Positions 22,773 to 23,131 of a stretch of DNA of 64,000 bases are shown here, one piece after another. This DNA comes from Mucilaginibacter celer. GTDB lineage: Bacteria; Bacteroidota; Bacteroidia; Sphingobacteriales; Sphingobacteriaceae. Every line of letters starts with the position of its first letter. Position 1 is the first letter of the stretch. The position numbers and the translations under genes are program-made. The DNA lies in the NCBI RefSeq assembly GCF_003576455.2, contig NZ_CP032869.1, positions 2,356,001 through 2,420,000 on the forward strand. Direction: 5' to 3'. The notes beneath the pieces are model-generated. The model saw nothing but the letters and a program-made list of their open reading frames with translations, made no database searches and was not told where the DNA came from.

Positions 22773-22881
22773 ATTTATAAAGAAGCGGCGAGAGATCAGG
22801 CTCAATGACCCGCTGGCAACCCTTCAATGTTGAAGAAGGTGCCAATTCCTGTCCCGGCAAATAACACCGGGGAATATAAAT
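22773..22881 (+). promoter_or_regulatory. SAM-I (S-box) riboswitch
   Basis: Conserved S-box blocks appear in order: GCGGCGAGAGATCAGGC, CAATGACCCGCTGGCAACC and AAGGTGCCAATTCCTG. P1 is closed by ATTTATA (22773-22779) and TATAAAT (22875-22881). It lies upstream of metY, metX and hom. The 3' edge of P1 is only 8 nt from the ATG of a 36-codon leader ORF, so ligand binding could affect leader translation as well as, or rather than, transcription. Confidence 0.93.
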
Positions 22882-22889
22882 TTATAACC

Positions 22890-23000
22890 ATGAAAAGTTT
22901 AATTAAATTTACGCAACGCAACACTTTTTACACCTTAAACGGTAACGTACAATATATTAGCTCTCCCGTTAGCTGTATTTGTATTTGTTGCTGCTGTTGA
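22890..23000 (+). CDS. Cys-rich leader peptide, 36 residues
   Basis: A short ORF, ATG 22890 to TGA 23000, directly after the SAM-I aptamer. It begins MKSLIKFTQRNTFYT and ends CICICCCC, so six of the last eight sense codons are cysteine (four TGT, two TGC). There is no signal peptide. The stop is 7 nt before a stable hairpin. The layout matches a ribosome-stalling attenuator that would sense Cys-tRNA ahead of the sulfide-using enzyme metY. A functional thiol- or metal-binding peptide is an alternative. I know of no named family for it. Confidence 0.65.
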   Translation: MKSLIKFTQRNTFYTLNGNVQYISSPVSCICICCCC

Positions 23001-23007
23001 TGCTTAG

Positions 23008-23071
23008 CACACGTCTCTTTTCCATCTCCGGAAAAGGGTGTGTATTGTTAAACCGGTTATTTCACAACCGG
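23008..23071 (+). promoter_or_regulatory. Two hairpins after the Cys-rich leader ORF
   Basis: Hairpin 1 (23008-23042) has a lower stem CACAC/GTGTG and an upper stem CTTTTCC/GGAAAAG with loop ATCTCC. Hairpin 2 (23053-23071) is CCGGTT/AACCGG with a 7-nt loop, followed by CTTTGTC, a poor U-run. Neither is a textbook terminator, so the switch may act on RNA stability, Rho access or metY translation. metY starts 60 nt later. Confidence 0.6.
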
Positions 23072-23131
23072 CTTTGTCAAAATCCATCTAACATTCAAAA
23101 TCTAAATTAAACACATAAAAATCACAAAACT

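Follow-up and report, generated by a model that had tools for sequence, protein, structure and literature searches.

The metY–metX–hom operon of Mucilaginibacter celer is preceded by a SAM-I riboswitch and, directly behind it, a short open reading frame (ORF) that ends in a run of cysteine codons, and we consider it likely that the two form a two-input 5′ leader, in which a ribosome translating cysteine (or methionine) codons would serve as a sensor, with its start site placed in the P1 stem of the riboswitch and its translation gated by SAM. The arrangement, confirmed here, was pointed out in an earlier, sequence-only reading of the window, whose interpretation the comparisons below support; by the window we mean the whole stretch of 64,000 nucleotides that was analysed. 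Positions are counted from the first letter of the window, and the features of the metY locus all lie on the forward strand.

The leader opens with a candidate promoter (22679–22711), made up of TTTGG at 22679–22683 and TATATTCG at 22704–22711, which is of the Bacteroidota −33/−7 type. Between the promoter box and the riboswitch, the sequence TTGGTA-GCGA-TACCAA (22721–22736) makes a small 5′ hairpin whose loop is of the GNRA type. The SAM-I (S-box) aptamer spans 22772–22882 and matches RF00162 in cmscan at full length (1–108) and with a conserved core, scoring 80.1 bits (E 3e-17) against a gathering score of 44.4. The Rfam match ends at 22882 and the ATG of the leader ORF stands at 22890–22892, a gap of 7 nt where 8 nt had been read. 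This is the placement found in the translational mode with the ribosome-binding site (RBS) in P1, and the 3′ strand of P1 falls within the initiation region of the leader ORF. The ORF comprises 36 codons (MKSLIKFTQRNTFYTLNGNVQYISSPVSCICICCCC, 22890–23000) with a TGA stop at 22998–23000, and its final eight codons (22974–22997), the presumptive regulatory ones, read CICICCCC, exactly as described earlier; the consensus for the genus is CICMCCCC, with methionine at the position where M. celer has isoleucine. Minimum free energy (MFE) folding recovers both of the hairpins previously seen past the stop. The first, of 35 nt (hairpin 1, 23009–23043), lies 8 nt rather than 7 nt behind the stop codon, and the second (hairpin 2, about 23049–23076) lacks a T-run in the terminator scan and is not an intrinsic terminator.

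The order metY, metX, hom holds as first read, and two of the three genes pass curated cut-offs, namely metY (O-acetylhomoserine sulfhydrylase, 23132–24445; TIGR01326, 682 bits against 495) and hom (homoserine dehydrogenase, 25653–26888; NF004976, 321 bits against 205), while the best NCBIfam match of metX (homoserine O-acetyltransferase, 24598–25653), TIGR01392, is below them. Upstream of the leader, 21443–22558 encodes a PLP enzyme of the cystathionine gamma-synthase/lyase family (PF01053; best NCBIfam matches below cut-offs), and the genome also contains a cystathionine beta-synthase-like gene with PALP and CBS domains that scores 509 bits against a cut-off of 510. Given this gamma-synthase/lyase-type neighbour and the beta-synthase-like gene, formation of cysteine from homocysteine is plausible. 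Homocysteine is the product of metY, and a sulfur physiology with two signals is coherent.

For comparison, metY was located in 101 genomes of the same genus and the upstream DNA of 79 distinct loci was collected, SAM-I being called in most relatives by a regular expression for its core, and with Rfam in loci lacking SAM-I and in selected others. In all 79 loci the SAM-I core is present and an ORF begins 71–81 nt behind the GGCAACC core, and in 76 of them at least four of the last eight codons encode cysteine. Dinucleotide shuffling of these regions produced no such ORF in 7,900 trials, and the Cys-tail ORF at the foot of the aptamer is therefore not due to chance; the sequence-only reading had named a short ORF behind SAM-I in relatives, with its terminal Cys codons conserved, as supportive, and it is indeed there. 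On the 5′ side of the aptamer, a pattern count finds a TAnnTTyG box in 75 of the 79 loci, and a GGTA[GNRA-like]TACC pattern recurs in 49, beginning 19 nt after the start of the promoter box in 47. A pattern search of the M. celer genome itself for Cys runs before a stop proved too unspecific.

The order of these elements suggests how the leader might work. Transcription would probably start about 55 nt before the aptamer. As the P1 stem overlaps the leader initiation region, bound SAM should hide the start site, and at high SAM the leader would stay untranslated, which by analogy to classic attenuators should be the off state. At low SAM the leader would be translated, and the ribosome would pause on the terminal Cys codons (and on Met codons in most relatives) if Cys-tRNA or Met-tRNA were poorly charged. 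A ribosome paused there would stand at the foot of hairpin 1, which begins 8 nt behind the stop, and would alter the RNA fold before metY. Low SAM combined with a shortage of cysteine would thus switch metY on, and it would be off when SAM is high or the leader is read through to its end. We infer the stalling, the gating of the leader by SAM and the sign of regulation from sequence. Gating through P1 fits the anatomy as well as a published mode of SAM-I riboswitches, in which the RBS lies in the 3′ side of P1 (PMC2258182); the aptamer and the overlap of the P1 3′ strand with an initiation region are the same in both, but the region belongs there to the metabolic gene and here to the leader peptide.

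Two sensors might instead work in parallel, SAM-I acting on the transcript independently of the Cys leader, with leader translation outside SAM control, although we think this unlikely. Cys leaders do occur without SAM-I, and in three loci of the same genus (L008, L011, L020; SAM-I at about 1501–1609 of each locus) a second SAM-I and Cys-tail leader (MPAMCCCC, MQGMRCCC) precede a TonB-dependent receptor ORF, the leader starting about 97 nt after the aptamer, where P1 would be unable to mask its start. At the metY loci, however, the ATG keeps within the 71–81 nt range in every one of the 79, the P1 3′ strand lies inside the initiation footprint, and a separate expression platform between aptamer and leader was not found. 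These points favour the serial reading, with the riboswitch acting on the leader. At one locus of the same family (L165), SAM-I abuts the start of metY directly and there is no leader, a layout suggesting that, where a leader is present, it has taken the start site that the riboswitch would otherwise control.

Among the genus loci, pairing in the outer stem of hairpin 1 amounts to 88.5%. The stem covaries, with 22 double-change cells where shuffling gives 9.1 ± 2.5, in agreement with the conserved hairpin that the sequence-only reading anticipated. A scan of 78 segment pairs ranked hairpin 1 and the overlap of P1 with the leader start at the top; the 5′ strand of P1 gave z values of about −1.2 against the metY start and about −1.1 against the metY 5′UTR, these being conserved A/T-rich segments and not independent samples. 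Single folds had hinted that the Cys tail pairs at long range with the metY 5′UTR. This idea was rejected, since over the 79 loci the tail has no conserved pairing with either the 5′UTR or the spacer (mean z about 0). Mutually exclusive folds between the tail and these segments were likewise not found in the 79 loci, nor was any conserved pairing in the genus able to mask metY.

An intrinsic terminator scan of the 79 loci gave two weak candidates, and no T-run follows hairpin 1 or hairpin 2 at the M. celer locus. Lacking an intrinsic terminator and a competing antiterminator, the leader is not classed here as a classic transcription attenuator. The missing terminator in this genus, together with the enrichment of Met codons in the tail, goes beyond the earlier reading. 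Classic attenuation by an intrinsic terminator at the M. celer metY locus is accordingly very unlikely, even though just such an architecture precedes metY in families lacking SAM-I, for the T-run is missing here and in nearly all of the 79 relatives. The leader body and spacer are G-poor, the maximum C/G ratio in 78 nt having a median of 2.6 against 1.7 in controls, but 13% of controls reach this value and such a hint at Rho from composition is too weak to claim. Transfer of the signal to metY by Rho-dependent termination, by translational control or by mRNA decay is possible.

Several families lacking SAM-I have Cys/Met leaders before metY at loci where the absence of SAM-I was checked with Rfam, and the tails are Cys-rich and often Met-rich (MMCMCCCM, MMCCCMCCC, MCCMMMMCMC), sometimes with two leaders in tandem. 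A GC hairpin with a T-run follows 48–75 nt past the leader stop in families f3, f11 (one of three loci), f38 and f54, and in seven of nine cases tested the 5′ arm of the terminator shows complementarity to the RNA immediately past the Cys codons that exceeds that of shuffles (p ≤ 0.05, in single-locus tests). These predicted terminators and their matching antiterminators make up textbook attenuator anatomy, and they lend good but not exhaustive support to the view that Cys/Met leaders before metY would act through ribosome position. An excess of Met codons in the leaders without SAM-I, as if methionine replaced the riboswitch, was not significant (p=0.23, 20 versus 6 groups). In family f3 (L179, L182, L217) two Cys/Met leader ORFs stand in tandem before metY; L179 and L217 have a terminator after each, and L182 has one after the first leader and, by eye, a hairpin with a T-rich stretch after the second.

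In the SAM-I leaders of the genus, what is conserved is the coding of the tail. Over the 79 loci the last eight codons are 67% Cys and 15.5% Met, against about 1.2% and 0.2% in the body, and each of the last three positions is Cys in 73–76 loci. The ORF ranges from 28 to 41 codons, all three phases occur in the distances from aptamer to ATG and from stop to metY, and the Cys run is always in frame, with TGT and TGC swapped freely. In 14 close relatives the body has a pN/pS of 0.72, against 0.68 and 0.66 in the off frames, showing no amino-acid constraint, and the third-position bias expected earlier for the whole ORF did not materialise. Selection is restricted to the leader tail, as expected for an attenuator leader; with the regulatory codons under selection and the rest of the peptide drifting, the pattern is that of a leader kept for its codons and not for its product. 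Judged on sequence, by its run of codons for a pathway amino acid beyond chance and by tail-only selection, the ORF counts as an amino-acid leader peptide.

That the TGY repeats are kept as RNA, as a pairing or protein-binding element rather than as codons, seems highly improbable to us. Alternation of TGT and TGC would by itself be compatible with pairing, T and C both pairing with G, but the tail has no conserved complement (z about 0), the run stays in frame with the fixed ATG despite changes in ORF length, and the broken Cys patterns of other genera are in frame too. Least probable of all is that the ORF is there for its peptide, which would be a small metal- or redox-binding protein rich in Cys and encoded ahead of metY, for although its dense Cys run and conserved ORF would suit such a role, the body is free of amino-acid constraint, the number and spacing of Cys differ among genera, the leader peptides match no NCBIfam or Pfam family, and the ORF is located in a 5′ leader, either that of metY or that of some other gene linked to SAM-I.

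Beyond Mucilaginibacter, other genera of the family have the same anatomy, though their tails have diverged (examples are TCMCCCMQ, CCMCMNLNCCC and LCCCCC). Of the 61 SAM-I metY loci in named genomes of Sphingobacteriales, Cytophagales and other Bacteroidia, 43 have a Cys leader, a count that leaves out L299 and L323, where the ORFs lie upstream of the riboswitch. The leader stands behind SAM-I in all eight Mucilaginibacter, in all 11 Pedobacter and all six Hymenobacter with SAM-I, and also in Pontibacter, Chryseolinea, Rufibacter, Haliscomenobacter and others. The arrangement extends to about a dozen further families. Of 60 loci of the class outside the family, 22 have both elements, 10 have SAM-I alone, 11 have neither and 17 were scored as having a Cys ORF and no SAM-I. 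Some 13 of the last group look genuine; not counted are L188, L208 and L221, whose leaders look spurious, and L178, where the aptamer may lie outside the sequence retrieved. Some of the named genomes weigh against the proposal, in that Sphingobacterium keeps SAM-I and the ORF with an RMR tail and no Cys run, and the ORF that Algoriphagus, Belliella and Cyclobacterium have in this place lacks a Cys run.

Unusual tails were noted at L156, L158, L159, L285, L289, L297, L300, L303, L316, L317 and L320. Leaders of the Sphingobacterium type end in RMR or carry MSMRMRM...HLPTC, with no Cys run; the tails of Hymenobacter and Pontibacter combine RM(R/C) with Cys runs. One idea is that such tails might cause an arginine-X-arginine pause of the nascent chain.

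A more general form of the proposal is that of a serial gate, in which the riboswitch would decide whether the leader is translated, charging of Cys- and Met-tRNA would be read only at low SAM, and the output would be produced without an intrinsic terminator, the whole being ancestral or recurrent across the metY operons of Bacteroidota and in some families replaced by Cys/Met attenuators without SAM-I. We regard the case for this general form as evenly balanced.

SAM-I aptamers also occur elsewhere in these genomes. In M. celer itself one aptamer lies 46 nt upstream of tRNA-Cys(GCA) on the same strand (L003:1501-1734, corresponding to G000:C1:4222601-4222834), and the relatives L006 and L010 have a tRNA-Cys gene behind SAM-I-linked desulfurase and peroxiredoxin-like ORFs. 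Other SAM-I aptamers of the genus (L001, L004, L005-L033) precede TlpA/ResA-like redoxins, cysteine desulfurases and a metH-like gene. The window also contains a cobalamin riboswitch on the reverse strand (13354–13550, 106.9 bits) and two adjacent tRNA genes with long variable arms (34273–34496).

Both kinds of sensor are known, and it is their serial combination that is apparently undescribed. Polycysteine leader ORFs of Actinobacteria are reportedly the subject of Canestrari et al. 2020. Such ORFs, predicted in Actinobacteria (PMC1262725), resemble the leader described here in being short, in their terminal Cys codons, in the sulfur genes downstream and in having no obvious intrinsic terminator, and differ from that of M. 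celer in phylum and genes, in having no riboswitch and in that no conserved hairpin was found (PMC1262725). The uORF of cysS in Rhodobacterales, uORFC-8-2, is likewise a Cys-codon leader predicted to be a ribosome-mediated attenuator (PMC8632094), but it has an intrinsic terminator, two Cys codons and no riboswitch, and serves cysS. In Mycobacterium tuberculosis, B12 riboswitches are combined with uORFs at metE, by suppression, and at ppe2, by termination-reinitiation (PMC11260477). There too a riboswitch controls a translated uORF ahead of a gene, but no amino-acid sensing is reported and both ligand and phylum are different. Tandem riboswitches include pairs of a ppGpp riboswitch and a T-box. 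In tandem riboswitches generally, two sensors on one leader act as a logic gate (reviewed in PMC9481103), as is proposed here, with the difference that the second sensor would be a ribosome translating Cys codons. Leader-peptide attenuation of amino-acid operons is mentioned in a Flavobacterium transcriptome study, the main text of which gives no detail (PMC9723704). The earlier reading knew of no such stack described in Bacteroidota, and we found none of SAM-I and an amino-acid leader peptide in the open-access literature, absence from which is not proof.

If the proposed mechanism is true, the leader is a natural series gate that joins a small-molecule riboswitch to a sensor of tRNA charging, in a phylum, the Bacteroidota, for which leader-peptide control has been little described. 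Dozens of natural variants, with SAM-I and with or without the Cys tail, or with Cys/Met leaders and terminators, are at hand for studying how such gates evolve. For the bacteria themselves, it would help to explain how sulfur is balanced between methionine and cysteine.
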